Source: Oscillospiraceae bacterium
GTDB lineage: Bacteria; Bacillota; Clostridia; Lachnospirales; Lachnospiraceae
NCBI GenBank assembly: GCA_021771715.1
Contig: JAETOO010000002.1
Coordinates: 62,001 to 126,000 of the forward strand
DNA: 64,000 nt
Reading direction: 5' to 3'
In this document: positions 54,592 to 60,219 of the stretch, in pieces
Layout: each line of letters opens with the position of its first letter
How positions within the stretch are numbered: the stretch's first letter is position 1
Notes under the pieces: generated by a model
What the model saw: the letters and a program-made list of their open reading frames with translations, nothing else
Told to the model about the DNA's origin: nothing
Databases searched by the model: none
Made by a program: the position numbers and the translations under genes

Positions 54592-54900
54592 TTAATTTAC
54601 TATCCATGAAAACCTTGCATGGTGAAATTCCGTCCATTCAGCAATTCTTCGAAATAATTCTTCCATTAAATTTGTTGGTTCTTCCACTAACTCTAAGATA
54701 ATCCATGTATTTTCAGTTTCTGCTTCCGGATATTTTTTGATAAATTCTTCCGTTTTTATATAATCCAGACACATTTCAATTTTATCCATAAGATATTCCT
54801 GCGTCTTTATAGAATTATCCAGAGGCTTTTCTGATACAACATGTATCACAACGCCCCCATCTTCTCTTGCAGAAACCTTATCTAACCTTATGAAATCCAT
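54592..54900 (-). CDS. Small acidic protein, DUF6572-like (tentative)
   Basis: 103 residues beginning MDFIRLDKVSAREDGGVVIH, with a helical centre (YLMDKIEMCLDYIKTEEF) and a beta-rich end (ENTWIILELVEEP). The pattern resembles small DUF6572-type proteins, sometimes found beside polymorphic toxins; this is from memory and tentative. Start ATG 54900 follows AAGGAG. AT-rich. Last gene of a four-gene leftward run of small unknown genes. Confidence 0.65.
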   Translation of the reverse strand: MDFIRLDKVSAREDGGVVIHVVSEKPLDNSIKTQEYLMDKIEMCLDYIKTEEFIKKYPEAETENTWIILELVEEPTNLMEELFRRIAEWTEFHHARFSWIVN

Positions 54901-54986
54901 ATATCTCCTTTCGTCTCTCCCATATTTCAAACGCTACTGGGCACACTTCTCTTGCGTCCAAAACACTTCTTGTATAGACCAATGTA

Positions 54987-55268
54987 TCATACTTCCCCAT
55001 AAAATTCCTGATCACTGACTGCGGACCATTTCAGATACATTTCTTTATAATTATCTTTTATAAATTCCCGTATCAGTCTGATTTCTCTTTCAGAAAGTAT
55101 CCCCTTATTTTCAACCGTTGTTTCACCATTACTTTTCACAAAAAATTTTGCAGAACCCGCTTCTGTTAATTTCTGATCGCTTGCATGTACATGCATGGCC
55201 TCCACAATACAATGAGAGGTATAATACAGATAATAACCACATACTTTGTATTCATAATATTTCGGCCT
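54987..55268 (-). CDS. DUF4160-type small protein with apparently lost ATG start
   Basis: The frame encodes PKYYEYKVCGYYLYYTSHC, then EAMHVHASDQKLTEAGSAKF and ILSEREIRLIREFIKDNYKE. This matches the DUF4160 pattern (a His-rich strand, an AKF.. strand, two helices; function unknown, often in toxin-antitoxin-like pairs). A GGAGGGG site stands five bases before AGG at 55266-55268, exactly where ATG-Pro-Lys-Tyr would be expected. The first accepted start codon in frame is GTG 55205, which would remove the first third. Either the start has mutated from ATG, translation begins at a non-standard codon, or a shortened protein is made. Confidence 0.6.
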   Translation of the reverse strand, partial: RPKYYEYKVCGYYLYYTSHCIVEAMHVHASDQKLTEAGSAKFFVKSNGETTVENKGILSEREIRLIREFIKDNYKEMYLKWSAVSDQEFYGEV

Positions 55269-55270
55269 GT

Positions 55271-55492
55271 TTACCCCTCCATGTATTTCTCATTACGTCT
55301 GTAATAATCCAGAATAATATCCAATTCAATGTCATCCATGCTCGTCTCTAAAACCTCTCCATTTTTTCTGATAAGTGCTGCTCTGTCGGGCCTGTTCAAA
55401 TTCAAAACCTTTATATTTTTATCGTCTTTTGTAAATGCATATCCATTTACAATCATTTCTGCGGCATCAGCAATTTCACGAATATTAATCAT
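55271..55492 (-). CDS. Small protein of unknown function
   Basis: 73 residues, MINIREIADAAEMIVNGYAF at the N-terminus and DIELDIILDYYRRNEKYMEG at the end. Starts at ATG 55492 and overlaps the preceding gene by eight bases; TTG 55498 is an alternative. Not recognised. Tight packing with its neighbours (overlap before, two bases to the presumed DUF4160 start after) indicates one transcript and perhaps one complex, as in toxin-antitoxin or immunity modules (inference). Confidence 0.65.
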   Translation of the reverse strand: MINIREIADAAEMIVNGYAFTKDDKNIKVLNLNRPDRAALIRKNGEVLETSMDDIELDIILDYYRRNEKYMEG

Positions 55493-55754
55493 AAACAATC
55501 CCTACTTCCTTAATTGGCCTCAAAAATTCATCTGCATCAAAATACAAATTCTCCAGTATCGGTATTAAATCAATATATTCCTCTATTTCCTCCATCCCCT
55601 CATACTTCGCTATGACAACAAGATAGCCGTGCTCCCACTCCAAGACTCTTATATAACGTTCTAAGCGAGGGGAAGTTCGAAAACGTATCATATGGTGGTC
55701 ATACGTAAAAGATGTATAATTTCTGTCACTACTCAATATTGCTCTATCTGTCAT
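55485..55754 (-). CDS. Small protein of unknown function
   Basis: 89 residues, mostly beta-strand by appearance (YTSFTYDHHMIRFRTSPRLE, then EHGYLVVIAKYEGMEEIEEY). Starts at ATG 55754 with a weak GGTGAT site; first gene of the four-gene run. Not recognised. AT-rich composition as in the rest of this island. Confidence 0.65.
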   Translation of the reverse strand: MTDRAILSSDRNYTSFTYDHHMIRFRTSPRLERYIRVLEWEHGYLVVIAKYEGMEEIEEYIDLIPILENLYFDADEFLRPIKEVGIVYD

Positions 55755-55807: not shown

Positions 55808-56083
55808 ATAATTTTCATTTTATCACATATACCTTGTTATGAAAACCGTGATTTCCTTTATCCTGTCGTATTTTTTCATACATTTTGTCTATGCTCCCAC
55901 CCCGCCCTACACAGGCAGACTATCCCTCATACACAGCAGTCTACGCTCCCGCTCCGGTTGGCGCTAACAGTGCGCCACTGGCGCACAGCGCCCCATATCC
56001 CACCTGGTTATTCGGAAATCTCTCAAACCCCGGCAGCGGCCTTGCGCCTCTCCTCAGATATGCTTTCACCTTTTCCCCATATG
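55808..56083 (-). repeat. Duplicated 3' end and flank of the S8 protease gene (copy A)
   Basis: About 275 bases homologous to 57767-58015. On the minus strand it encodes YGEKVKAYLRRGARPLPGF, then PNNQVGYGALC, matching the last 35 or so residues of the S8 protease with substitutions. It then departs where a hairpin element (55940-55991, like the one at 1851-1907) has entered. The downstream flank (ATACCTTG ... TTTCATACATTT) is also shared. It has no start and is a gene fragment. It fills most of the 466-base gap 55755-56220. Confidence 0.88.
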
Positions 56084-56220
56084 GTGCTGTCAATTAAGGA
56101 CAAATAAAATTTTACATTTTTTTAATATTTCTTCGTTGCTAATAAATTTTTCATTTCATTTTTGACAAAACAGAACCTCATAATCTCACAAACTCATGAA
56201 ACTATGAGGCAAAATCATTT

Positions 56221-56500
56221 TTATATTTCTTTTAAAATATATTTTCCCTTCCCCTTTCCTTCTACAGGAACCACAATCTTTAATAGTTGCATGGCTTCTA
56301 TCGCTTTTCCTGCTTTATAATCACCATATCCCAACTCCTTTTTTATTTCCTTACGGCCAAAAATTTGGTTCAAATCAAACGTTTCCACAACTTTTTTCAC
56401 ATTTCCTGCAATAATTGGAGTCAAGGTTTTTTTATAAACTGCATCATCAATAGCTTGAAACAATGTTTTTTTAGGAGCAAGCAGTGTTTTTCCGGCCCTT
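56221..56500 (-). pseudogene. 5'-truncated fragment encoding a winged-helix-like C-terminus
   Basis: From TTG 56463 the frame gives FQAIDDAVYKKTLTPIIAGN, then IFGRKEIKKELGYGDYKAGK and VPVEGKGKGKYILKEI to a stop at 56221. It looks like the C-terminal winged helix of a larger AAA or Fic-type protein. The frame runs a little further upstream (AGKTLLAPKK) to an in-frame stop and contains no ATG. It is probably the leftover end of a lost gene between the nuclease gene and the S8 fragment. Confidence 0.55.
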
Positions 56501-56567
56501 ATCGTCCGACTACTTCAAGTTCTTTATACATATAATCAACACCTTCACAAGTTCATTGCAGATATAA

Positions 56568-57713
56568 CTATATCTCGACTTCTTGTTCTTTTTTCTGTAA
56601 ATAATAAAAGTGTTTCTGAATTTCAATTTCCTCACGCAACTGTTCCTCAGATGGAAGATAGGTTTTGTATTTTGAGGCAAATAACTGCTCGTGCCCATGC
56701 AAAACAGAATATTTCGCAATATCCTCATCTGTATCCGAACACAAAATGATTCCAAGCGTAGGATTATCGTCCTCGTTTTTCTTCATCTCGTCATACATAC
56801 GAATATACATATCCATCTGTCCAACATCCTGATGCGTGATTTTTGAAGTTTTCAGGTCAATCAGCACAAAACATTTCAAAATATAATTATAAAAAACGAG
56901 GTCGATATAATAATCCTCTTTTTCTGTACGAATATGCTGTTGGCGCGCCACAAACGCATAACCTTTGCCCATCTCCATAAGAAATTTCTGAATATGAGTG
57001 ATAATGCGCTGCTCCAGCTCAGTTTCTGTAAAATCAGTATTGAATGATAAACCAAGAAATTCTGCTATCACAGGATTCTTGATGAACTCTAACTTATCTG
57101 CTTGATAAGGAGCAACCACTTCTTTCATTTCCGATTCGACAGGCTCTGTGTTTTGAGACATCAACATTCGATAATAATACTGCGATGAAACATTGCGCTG
57201 CAAAGTACGAACAGACCATGCCTGTTCCTGTGCTTCTTTTTCATACCACGCACGCGCTTCCGAAGAAGTTTCCTGCAACAAGATCCTATAATGCGTCCAC
57301 GACAAAGGCCGACCGAATTTTGGCCTCAGTGAGTCCAAAATCTTCGGGAATGTCTGATAGAACTTCACATATTTGTACAAACTGCTAAAATCAAAACCTT
57401 TTCCATATTTTTCCTTCAGCCCGGAAGACAGTTTTTTTATGGTCTTTTTCCCATAATCCGCTTTTCCGTCTTCATCCAAGCAATCAAGAGCAATTCTCTT
57501 CCCCAGTAGCCAATTCCGTTGTACCAGAATTATATCAACCGCTGAATAGGCAATACTCTGAGCACTCTCTACAATTTCACAAGTGTCAACAAATAAGTCA
57601 CCTGTTTCCTGATAAGAAACCATTGTCAGGTTAGATTTTGGACTCAGCGAGTCCAAATTTTGCTTCCCAGATTTGGTACGCATGCGTTCCATTTTTTCTT
57701 TTTCAGATTTCAT
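56568..57713 (-). CDS. YhcG-family PD-(D/E)XK nuclease (DUF1016)
   Basis: 381 residues: an N-terminal DUF1016_N helical DNA-binding-like domain (NWLLGKRIALDCLDEDGKAD, GLKEKYGKGFDFSSLYKYVK, LSWTHYRILLQ) and the C-terminal YhcG nuclease domain with DYYIDLVFYNYILKCFVLID followed by LKT, the D...DxK version of the active site (Glu replaced by Asp). YhcG proteins are widespread accessory genes, often near restriction systems and phage-related islands, with a role in DNA repair or defence not firmly known. AT-rich. It lies between two copies of the S8 protease 3' end, consistent with cargo of an inserted or duplicated segment. Confidence 0.9.
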   Translation of the reverse strand: MKSEKEKMERMRTKSGKQNLDSLSPKSNLTMVSYQETGDLFVDTCEIVESAQSIAYSAVDIILVQRNWLLGKRIALDCLDEDGKADYGKKTIKKLSSGLKEKYGKGFDFSSLYKYVKFYQTFPKILDSLRPKFGRPLSWTHYRILLQETSSEARAWYEKEAQEQAWSVRTLQRNVSSQYYYRMLMSQNTEPVESEMKEVVAPYQADKLEFIKNPVIAEFLGLSFNTDFTETELEQRIITHIQKFLMEMGKGYAFVARQQHIRTEKEDYYIDLVFYNYILKCFVLIDLKTSKITHQDVGQMDMYIRMYDEMKKNEDDNPTLGIILCSDTDEDIAKYSVLHGHEQLFASKYKTYLPSEEQLREEIEIQKHFYYLQKKEQEVEI

Positions 57714-57766
57714 TGCGCATACACCTCCTAAACTACTCCCCTGGAATATCTTACAAACCTTTACCT

Positions 57767-58015
57767 ATAATTGTATCACGCATACCTTGTCGTGGAAACA
57801 GTAACTTTCTTCTGCCGTATTCTTTCATACATTTTTATATGCTTTCGCTCTATCCTACACAAAGTGGATCCCACACACAGCAGTCTGCACACTCTACGCA
57901 GGCAGCGAGTCCCTCACGCACAGCGCCCCATACCCCACCTGATTATTGGGATACTCTGTAAACCCCGGCAACGCCCTTGCGCCTCTCCTCAGATATGCTT
58001 TCACCTTTTCCCCAT
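57767..58015 (-). repeat. S8 protease 3' end and flank (copy B, in the intact gene)
   Basis: The parental counterpart of 55808-56083: the last 35-40 codons of the S8 gene plus about 125 bases downstream. The two copies are direct repeats flanking the YhcG nuclease gene, with their outer ends about 2.2 kb apart. Confidence 0.88.
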
Positions 58016-59948
58016 ACAGATACGGATCATTCCCCTGCACAATCCCCCACTGCATCAGCATCGCCGCCGCGCCGGTCGCGAAGGGCGTGGCGAAGGAGGT
58101 GCCTGTGACGCTAAGGTAGCCGCCGCGGACGGCTGTCGTCAGGATATCGACACCGGGAGCTACCAGATCCGGGCGAATGTCGTATGTCCCAACCGGCCAG
58201 CCGCGGCCTGAGAAGGGTGCATAGGCGTCCGTCCGCGAGTCATAGGCGCCGACGGCCAGCACGCGGCCGGCGGATGAGGGGATTGTCATCGTTGTATCCG
58301 GGGTCGGGCGCAGGAAACGCGTGTCCGGGTTCCGCGCGCGGGAATCCTGCAGCCACAGCGCATAGCTGCCGTCCACAATCCGCTGCGGCGTCAGGATGAT
58401 TCTCCAGACTCCTGCATCCAGATACTCACGCTCCGGGATAAAGTCAAAAAAGACCTCCTGCTGTACCTGGTACGGCGAAGGCTCTCCATAATAGACCAGC
58501 AATGACGTGCCGCCGAGGCGATAGCGCGATGCCCCGGTCTCCTGGCCGAACGGCCCGACGATTTGCCCGTCGGGATGCATCAGCGCAACGCGGAAGCTGT
58601 CTGCGTAATTTTTCCAGAGCTGCAGGTCCAGAGACGGCTCCGCCTCGCCAACTGCGAGCTCGATGACCGTCTCCTGTCCCGGTACCAGCACGCCGGATAC
58701 GTGGCCGCCGCTGCCCGCCTCATTCCCGGTGCCCACGACAAACACACTCTTCCAGCGGTCCGCCATCCGATCAAGATACGTCTCGAGCAGAGAGGTGCCC
58801 CGGTGCGACCCGTACGCATTCCCAAAACTCATATTGACTGCCACAGGCATGCGCAGCTCCTCTGCCACACGAATCACGTATTCCACTGCCTGCATCAGTT
58901 CCGTTGTGCGCGGAAAGCCGTCGGGCGACGGATTGCCAAGCTTCACGACAAGCAGATCGCTCAGAGGAGCTACACCGCGATATCTGCCCCCGGAGGAGCG
59001 TCCGTTCCCCGCTGCAATTCCCAACACCTCTGTCCCGTGCCCACTCAGATCCTGCTCCGGCACGATCTGGTAGCCCTGCTCTCTGCTGCCAGCTGCCAAA
59101 GCCGCGTTGATATCCTCTTGCGTATACTCGATCCCCTGCAAAAAGCCGGCAGGCGGACTGCCCGGAGCCACCCCCTCTGCGCGTACCGCTGACTGATCCC
59201 ACAGCGCAAGAATCCGCGTCGTACCGTCCGCATTGCGAAAATCCGGATGAAAATAGTCCACACCCGAGTCAATCACAGCAATGATAACTCCCTGCCCGAG
59301 CAGCGCTTCCTGACCGCCAACCGCTCGCTGCAGTGCCTCCCGACGCGACATTTCCTCCTCACCTGCCGCTGCTCGTTGCGGCAACTCTCGCTGCAGTGCC
59401 TCCCGCTGCGACATTTCCTCCTCACCTGCCGCTGCTCGTTGCGGCAACTCTCGCTGCAGTGCCTCCCGCTGCGACATTTCCTCCTCACCTGCCGCTGCTC
59501 GTTGCGACAACTCTCGCTGCAGCGTCTCCCGCTGCGACATTTCCTTCTCGCCTGTCATACGCTGCGGTGTCTCCCGCTGCAGGATTTCCTGCACGTCCGA
59601 CACGCGCTGCAGCGACGACATACAGGACGCACTGCGGCCCTGCTCCACGGAAAAGTACAACCGCTTCGGCTTCTCGATGTATTCGATCTCGGGCAGCGCT
59701 GCGAGCAGCTCTATATCTGCCTGCGGCAGTGTCACAATCGCATATCCCCCTGAGAGCGTCACAACCTCCCACGGTCCCGCAGCTCCGTCCGCGGTTATCG
59801 GTGCCAGCGCTCCGCTGTAGCGCACAATCACCTGCCAGGTACGGTCCCGCGAGTCGTAGCCTACCTCAAGGCTCTCGGAGCGCTCCCGCTCCTCCTGTGT
59901 CGCATCCAGCGCAAGATTCAGCAGGTTCTCTATTTTCTGATCATCCAT
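57894..59948 (-). CDS. S8-family subtilisin-like serine protease with repeat linker
   Basis: 684 residues, no signal peptide. The layout is that of clostridial Csp-like/bacillopeptidase proteases: a prodomain-like N-terminus (about 1-110), a Glu/Arg/Gln-rich linker (about 115-210) built of 21-residue repeats (MSQREALQRELPQRAAAGEE), and the subtilase domain with catalytic Asp 227 (IIAVIDSGVDYFHPDF), His 304 (LSGHGTEVLGIAAG) and Ser 618 (VTGTSFATPFATGAAA). A long beta-rich insert lies between His and Ser. ATG 59948 has AGGAG; the frame continues 51 bases upstream without a site. CspB-type proteases act in spore germination or maturation of cytosolic targets; the role here is not shown. Its 3' end is duplicated at 56 kb. 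Confidence 0.92.
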   Translation of the reverse strand: MDDQKIENLLNLALDATQEERERSESLEVGYDSRDRTWQVIVRYSGALAPITADGAAGPWEVVTLSGGYAIVTLPQADIELLAALPEIEYIEKPKRLYFSVEQGRSASCMSSLQRVSDVQEILQRETPQRMTGEKEMSQRETLQRELSQRAAAGEEEMSQREALQRELPQRAAAGEEEMSQREALQRELPQRAAAGEEEMSRREALQRAVGGQEALLGQGVIIAVIDSGVDYFHPDFRNADGTTRILALWDQSAVRAEGVAPGSPPAGFLQGIEYTQEDINAALAAGSREQGYQIVPEQDLSGHGTEVLGIAAGNGRSSGGRYRGVAPLSDLLVVKLGNPSPDGFPRTTELMQAVEYVIRVAEELRMPVAVNMSFGNAYGSHRGTSLLETYLDRMADRWKSVFVVGTGNEAGSGGHVSGVLVPGQETVIELAVGEAEPSLDLQLWKNYADSFRVALMHPDGQIVGPFGQETGASRYRLGGTSLLVYYGEPSPYQVQQEVFFDFIPEREYLDAGVWRIILTPQRIVDGSYALWLQDSRARNPDTRFLRPTPDTTMTIPSSAGRVLAVGAYDSRTDAYAPFSGRGWPVGTYDIRPDLVAPGVDILTTAVRGGYLSVTGTSFATPFATGAAAMLMQWGIVQGNDPYLYGEKVKAYLRRGARALPGFTEYPNNQVGYGALCVRDSLPA
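59345..59597 (-). repeat. 63-bp in-frame tandem repeat in the S8 protease gene
   Basis: Units marked by GCGACATTTCC at 59345, 59408, 59471 and 59534 (plus strand), exactly 63 bases apart; the middle ones are nearly identical, which suggests recent copy-number change. They encode the linker before the catalytic domain. Confidence 0.93.
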
Positions 59949-60219
59949 AGCGCACTCCTGACATCCGGGCAGAATGCCGCCTGGCCTCCGCCCGCGCATA
60001 TTCCTTCTATTTATATGACGTCAAGACCAAATAGATCTCTTTTATTTCGCTTCGCGCCGGTATACCGTTCGACATCTGCCGCCTCAGACGCACAGAGTAC
60101 TTTTTCAAGTACACAAGTCAAAAACACAGACATAGCGAATACCGTCCGCCCAGAAGTTCCTCCTGGCGCTGAGATTCAAAATACATTACATATACATCAT
60201 ATTAGTATCAAACAGTTAT

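Follow-up and report, generated by a model that had tools for sequence, protein, structure and literature searches.

Our analysis of a doubled protease gene end in a 64,000-nucleotide stretch of DNA (the window, on contig JAETOO010000002.1) and in related genomes shows that the 3′ end of an S8 (Csp-like) protease gene is, in Lachnospiraceae, an insertion hot spot for recombinase-bearing elements and for recombinase-less cassettes. The doubled end in the window is probably a divergent, partly decayed case of site-specific cassette insertion. The original prediction had suggested looking in related genomes for empty sites, or for different cargos each followed by another protease 3′ fragment. 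Both were found, with G061 empty and several cargos leading into an S8 3′ fragment, and it is this combination that identifies the protease end as a hot spot.

The element in G017 displays the insertion in full. It spans 23.7 kb and interrupts the S8 gene after the codons GYG, and the missing gene end, ALCVRDSIPV-stop, is found behind its far end. Among its genes are one of relaxase type and three open reading frames (ORFs) for serine recombinases; mobilisation genes are present. At five loci (G017, G049, L209, G315 and G377) the junction reads G(Y/W)G and then E(D/N)VIIR(L/S)H-stop. Some elements rewrite the last residues of the protease, with EDVIIRLH in place of ALCVRDSIPV, which might also make insertion and excision a switch for it. 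The far element end bears an arm, GTTTGTRRCAATRACTTGACATNCNCGGGG, immediately ahead of the displaced S8 end. The best NCBIfam match of the G017 recombinase is CcrB (4.8e-28; 98 bits, cut-off 900), and a plasmid search with the recombinase gave 10 records, TndX included, all below 60% identity. A 141-bp identity between the contig ends of G018 and G020 was set aside, as it resembles an assembler overlap length and so shows only that both ends enter the same sequence.

The arm defines a family across Lachnospiraceae. The search pattern contains no S8 codons, and the reversed pattern served as control. An order-wide scan of 392 genomes returned 7 arms in 6 genomes, all seven leading into an S8 C-terminus, and a family-wide scan of 397 genomes returned 28 arms in 20 genomes; the reversed pattern gave none in either scan. 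The S8 end motif, with up to two substitutions, stands behind 26 of the 28 family-wide arms (that of G691 is decayed, and G734 has none), compared with 138 of 5,364 random positions in the same loci. Three arms, one in G348 and two in G226, are common to both scans, and six further arms, five in loci of the genus and one in an IMG/VR contig, run into S8 ends. Altogether there are 38 distinct arms, and an S8 end lies behind 37, two of these ends being decayed (G691 and the second arm of G017).

The S8 gene and an arm occur together at 11 loci (G017, G059, G003, G315, G377, G375, G348, G344, G745, G691 and G522; G344 is a Hominisplanchenecus murintestinalis contig, L200), and at every locus read with both, the target is the S8 gene. 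In relatives the position of insertion within the gene is nearly constant. Among ORFs of at least 90 amino acids between gene and arm, no recombinase was found in eight of the 11, that is, in all except G017, G315 and G377. The recombinase-less cassettes at those eight loci measure 1.5 to 10 kb. For one of them an empty site is available: minus its 2.49-kb cassette, G059 matches G061 at 434 of 450 bases. The displaced end and flank match at 317 of 330, and the left end of the cassette does not align. We also observed that G059 and G061 (L176 and L175) are identical over long stretches, with differences clustered within about 150 bp of the insertion site.

The cargo varies from site to site, and many of the cassettes bear genes of antiviral type:

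G691: Cas3 and Cas1 by Pfam, with more cas genes recognised by eye
G375: KilA-N; PDC-S22
G348: DUF3990; PDC-M13B
G059: HTH_26, DUF6036
G003: AAA_14, DUF4143
G226: methyltransferase and HATPase genes
G344: a 1,979-amino-acid protein whose AAA and NB-ARC matches do not reach the cut-off
G651: an array of four arms with recombinase ORFs, a 1,339-amino-acid protein (STAND match below cut-off), TIR_2 and UvrD
G624: an array of three arms with a 21-kb sugar operon (by eye) and an AbiEi-like gene

No S8 gene lies within the stretches read of the G651 and G624 arrays. Cassettes that differ in the genes that follow can share a left end (G344, two in G226, and G059), and one cassette is common to G002 and G348, which belong to different genera (96.4% identity across 696 bp, 86% across 542); the S8 genes of these two genomes align over only 50 bp at the DNA level. 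In G745, from another genus than the window, the order is S8 gene, YhcG gene (2.7e-60), a 160-amino-acid ORF, arm and displaced S8 end. The succession of S8, YhcG and displaced S8 end is the arrangement of the window, and the two YhcG proteins are 29% identical. A second arm with an S8 end lies 1.3 Mb from the S8 gene of G745, with no S8 match within the 18.5 kb read around it.

In the window, the protease gene and the segment next to it are laid out as follows:

57894 to 59999, minus strand: complete S8 (Csp-like) protease gene, the target (Pfam CspB_prodomain 2.1e-30, Peptidase_S8 1.2e-37)
57975 to 58016, minus strand: left copy of a perfect 42-bp direct repeat, within the S8 gene (copy comparison)
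57767 to 57974, minus strand: remainder of the S8 3′ end plus flank on the intact side (repeat comparison)
56568 to 57713, minus strand: gene for a YhcG/DUF1016 PDDEXK nuclease, the cargo (Pfam YhcG_C 2.6e-53 and DUF1016_N; PADLOC PDC-S02 2e-127)
56221 to 56463, minus strand: ORF of 80 amino acids with no Pfam or NCBIfam match
56082 to 56141, minus strand: right junction of the segment, the expected place for an arm (best arm score 17)
56040 to 56081, minus strand: right copy of the perfect 42-bp repeat, where the fragment begins at TATGGGG (copy comparison)
55808 to 56081, minus strand: fragment of the S8 3′ end with its flank, interpreted as the gene's former end, now displaced (76% match to the intact end across 265 bases)

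The S8 protein matches NCBIfam CspBA at 2.1e-121, yet below the cut-off. The doubling in direct orientation that the original prediction described is real: in a whole-genome search the downstream copy matches the intact end with an E value of 1.6e-42, and is therefore not due to chance. The shared coding part is longer than the 35 or so codons first proposed, comprising the last 40 codons and the stop, and together with about 130 bp of flank it recurs 1,935 bp downstream (55808-56081). Between positions 57903-58016 and 55968-56081, which align without gaps for 114 bases, the match is 84%, and the flank is repeated as well. The 99 aligned coding bases contain 12 differences, every one of them after the identical opening 42 bases (P=7.7e-4 for random placement). 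The predicted AT-rich interior and its nuclease gene were also borne out: GC content is 37% between the copies versus 62% in the S8 gene, and PDC-S02, which the YhcG protein matches, is a candidate phage-defence family. The ORF list shows no recombinase between the two repeats. The 80-amino-acid ORF probably represents the 3′ part of a larger gene; along 133 bp its DNA is 79% identical to a cassette tail in G651. Two side observations concern this region: the S8 gene contains three internal tandem 63-bp repeats between prodomain and catalytic domain (59324-59604), and a promoter-like stretch can be seen by eye near 57769-57801, ahead of yhcG.

The fragment retains the codon-position pattern of a functional S8 end (0.813/0.489 versus 0.814/0.486). 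It was not found to be nearer to relatives than the intact end is, being closer in 15, farther in 14 and tied in 6 of 35. The codon pattern and the equal closeness therefore indicate that the fragment functioned as a gene end until recently. The 42-bp tract is identical at 41 of 42 bases to the S8 gene of G691, from another genus, the best of 567 windows between genes that are 59% identical overall (L308); the match is suggestive, and could be conservation. A second LCxRDSLPV-like end follows closely after the first both in the window fragment (55934-55860) and in the C31_440 copy described below (L024:15321-15398), as if an older insertion had hit the usual site.

Further S8 ends occur in the same genome. 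Two 3′-end copies lie on another contig, C31 (440219-440496 and 429297-429407), and the 20 kb read there contain no S8 gene. One stands before a GntR-type gene and a sugar operon (genes named by eye); the other sits between the sugar operon and an AbiEi-like gene, which shares 76.5% identity with its counterpart between arms in G624 and whose own Pfam match is below cut-off. A short scrap (L024:4867-4926) lies beside an IS3-like gene pair. A flank-only match of 75 bp (C31:366328-366402) lies upstream of an AAA ATPase gene, whose NCBIfam defence-ATPase matches are all below cut-off. Within the S8 gene, one and the same TATGGGG opens both the window fragment and the C31_429a copy; C31_440 apparently reaches some ten codons further upstream, and the scrap begins a few bases further in. 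The distant arm and S8 end of G745 parallel these orphan copies. Among the 46 other genomes of the genus, no free S8 end was found except a copy at a contig start in G049, which is an element junction.

We propose that the 1,935 bp between the 42-bp repeats would be a small recombinase-less mobile cassette inserted into the 3′ end of the S8 gene. Such a cassette would have brought its own S8 3′ end, which would now complete the gene, along with the flank and the YhcG nuclease, and the former end of the gene would have been displaced to the far side to persist as the fragment at 55808-56081. Serine recombinases presumably act in trans on recombinase-less cassettes. The window copy would then have arisen as in the relatives, at a TATGGGG placed 28 codons further upstream than the breakpoint usually seen; because TATGGGG starts both breakpoints, a shifted core would be the simplest bridge between them. 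Arguing for a cassette are the target, the size, the type of cargo, the 42-bp repeat and the working codon pattern of the fragment, as well as the identical TATGGGG start of two of the free copies, the likeness of the C31 AbiEi-like gene to that of G624 and of the 80-amino-acid ORF to the G651 cassette tail, and, in relatives, the empty site, the arms leading into S8 ends and the G745 arrangement. The segment also has its own S8 C-terminus at the start and a displaced S8 end behind, one of the features by which we define the S8-end cassette family.

Several observations weigh against this proposal. At the right junction a candidate arm looked plausible by eye and was rejected (shuffle p=0.21), and two other fragments likewise have no significant arm (p=0.49 and 0.90); for want of a significant arm, we do not count the window segment as a full member of the S8-end cassette family. 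The breakpoint is displaced by those 28 codons, the repeat extends about 130 bp beyond the stop, unlike in L200, and orphan ends stand on C31 away from any S8 gene, one with a seemingly different start. The window genome has no relative of the S8-targeting recombinase at E<=1e-60. It has seven PF07508 matches, and the end of the one group examined there, on C23, shows no arm or S8 end. Among the relatives searched, none offers an empty site for the window. The predicted cassette insertion at the protease 3′ end describes the relatives; the window copy, with its differing breakpoint and no significant arm, may have used their mechanism.

Homologous recombination could account for some of these features. 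Related-strain DNA, perhaps a circle, carrying the S8 3′ end, flank and YhcG gene would have joined the resident end via RecA and so doubled it, and copies would have spread to C31 by recombination between such ends, with no site-specific recombinase needed. Homology that covers both coding end and flank, a window junction without a significant arm, a genome without a close recombinase and four copies whose ends are not all alike would all be expected. However, two fragments begin at the identical TATGGGG, relatives demonstrably carry insertions at this gene end, and similar cargo sits at similar places in G745, G624 and G651, so that we regard this explanation as unlikely, if still a serious competitor. 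The original prediction also offered a tandem duplication of the whole S8 gene, the second copy of which would since have given way to cargo except for the last 41 codons. The functional codon pattern kept in the fragment would suit such an origin, but the S8 C-terminus occurs at E<=1e-40 in 40 of the 47 genus genomes (that of the window included), once in each, many of the assemblies being fragmented, and this single occurrence disfavours a duplication. A narrower search with the intact end gave one match each in 20 of 40 relatives. Moreover, the genome holds more free 3′ ends, none with the 5′ part of the gene, and the duplication finds no support and seems to us extremely improbable.

The fragment also contains a genus-wide palindromic short repeat (55934 to 55990, minus strand, from sequence searches of genus genomes), which might have dispersed it. 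The repeat, of about 55 bp, consists of a GCGCTGTG hairpin followed by AGCGCC and GCGGAGCGTAGAC. Matches to the fragment as query, mostly to the palindromic stretch, occur in 40 of the 47 genus genomes, as dispersal would predict, but among 23 copies examined by eye only that of the fragment adjoins S8 sequence, and the hairpin is absent from the intact end and from the C31 copy. Dispersal by the palindrome is accordingly very unlikely. The palindrome is also seen at 1850-1907 of the window, in L097-L104 of the same genome and in many congeners, and several copies in the window genome appear by eye to sit within a longer unit with GTTACAGTTCAGCC-type ends.

Beyond the fragment, the original prediction rightly noted four small genes:

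54592 to 55754, minus strand: genes matching DUF7724, DUF7723, DUF4160 and DUF6572 (domain matches)

This block has a GC content of 35%. It could be either a second cargo or a set of old neighbours, and a tblastn search of the window found no S8 end behind it.

Taken together, these observations suggest a broader model, to which we give roughly even chances, in which the Csp-type protease 3′ end is a family-wide platform, SCC-like or integron-like. Small recombinase-less modules (nucleases, TIR/STAND-like genes, KilA-N, AbiEi-like genes, Cas genes and sugar operons) would be swapped between genera there and stacked in arrays by trans-acting serine recombinases of resident mobilizable elements. 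The site provides one address, a single gene plus a 28-base signature, at which to look up defence and accessory genes in an important gut family. Exchange across genera can be followed at it, as with the cassette common to G002 and G348, and trans-mobilisation of recombinase-less defence cassettes becomes directly testable. Mobile elements are also linked through it to an enzyme of the germination-protease type, the C-terminus of which they provide or rewrite.

Our searches of open-licence papers brought up none that names a Csp/S8 gene as a landing site. Among the closest likenesses is the staphylococcal cassette chromosome (SCC), with its composite and pseudo-SCC elements, in which large serine recombinases insert near the end of the conserved rlmH gene, with gene ends as borders, tandem composites and variable cargo (PMC10061031). 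The S8 system works like SCC at rlmH, and CcrB is the best NCBIfam match of the G017 recombinase. However, the target is the S8 gene in another bacterial family, and the recombinases fall far under the Ccr cut-offs (98 versus 900 bits for the G017 protein); the S8 system is therefore not SCC. Cis-mobilizable elements (CIMEs) are described as recombinase-less elements with kept ends that stack at one site by accretion (PMC5704250), and recombinase-less elements with kept ends are likewise stacked at the S8 site. Ends of a known family (attL/attR) without an integrase are found in relatives such as G059, G003 and G745; the window has the 42-bp repeat and no significant arm. G017, with its mobilisation genes and serine recombinases, resembles an integrative and mobilizable element (IME). 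Serine-recombinase IMEs are described as disrupting genes that are dispensable, and low specificity is reported for Tn4451, whereas the small cassettes at the S8 site supply a new gene end; the window copy has no detectable arm. Finally, arrays of small modules at one site (four arms in G651, three in G624) recall integrons, although the recombinases seen at the S8 site are large serine recombinases; a tyrosine integron integrase and attC sites were not sought.
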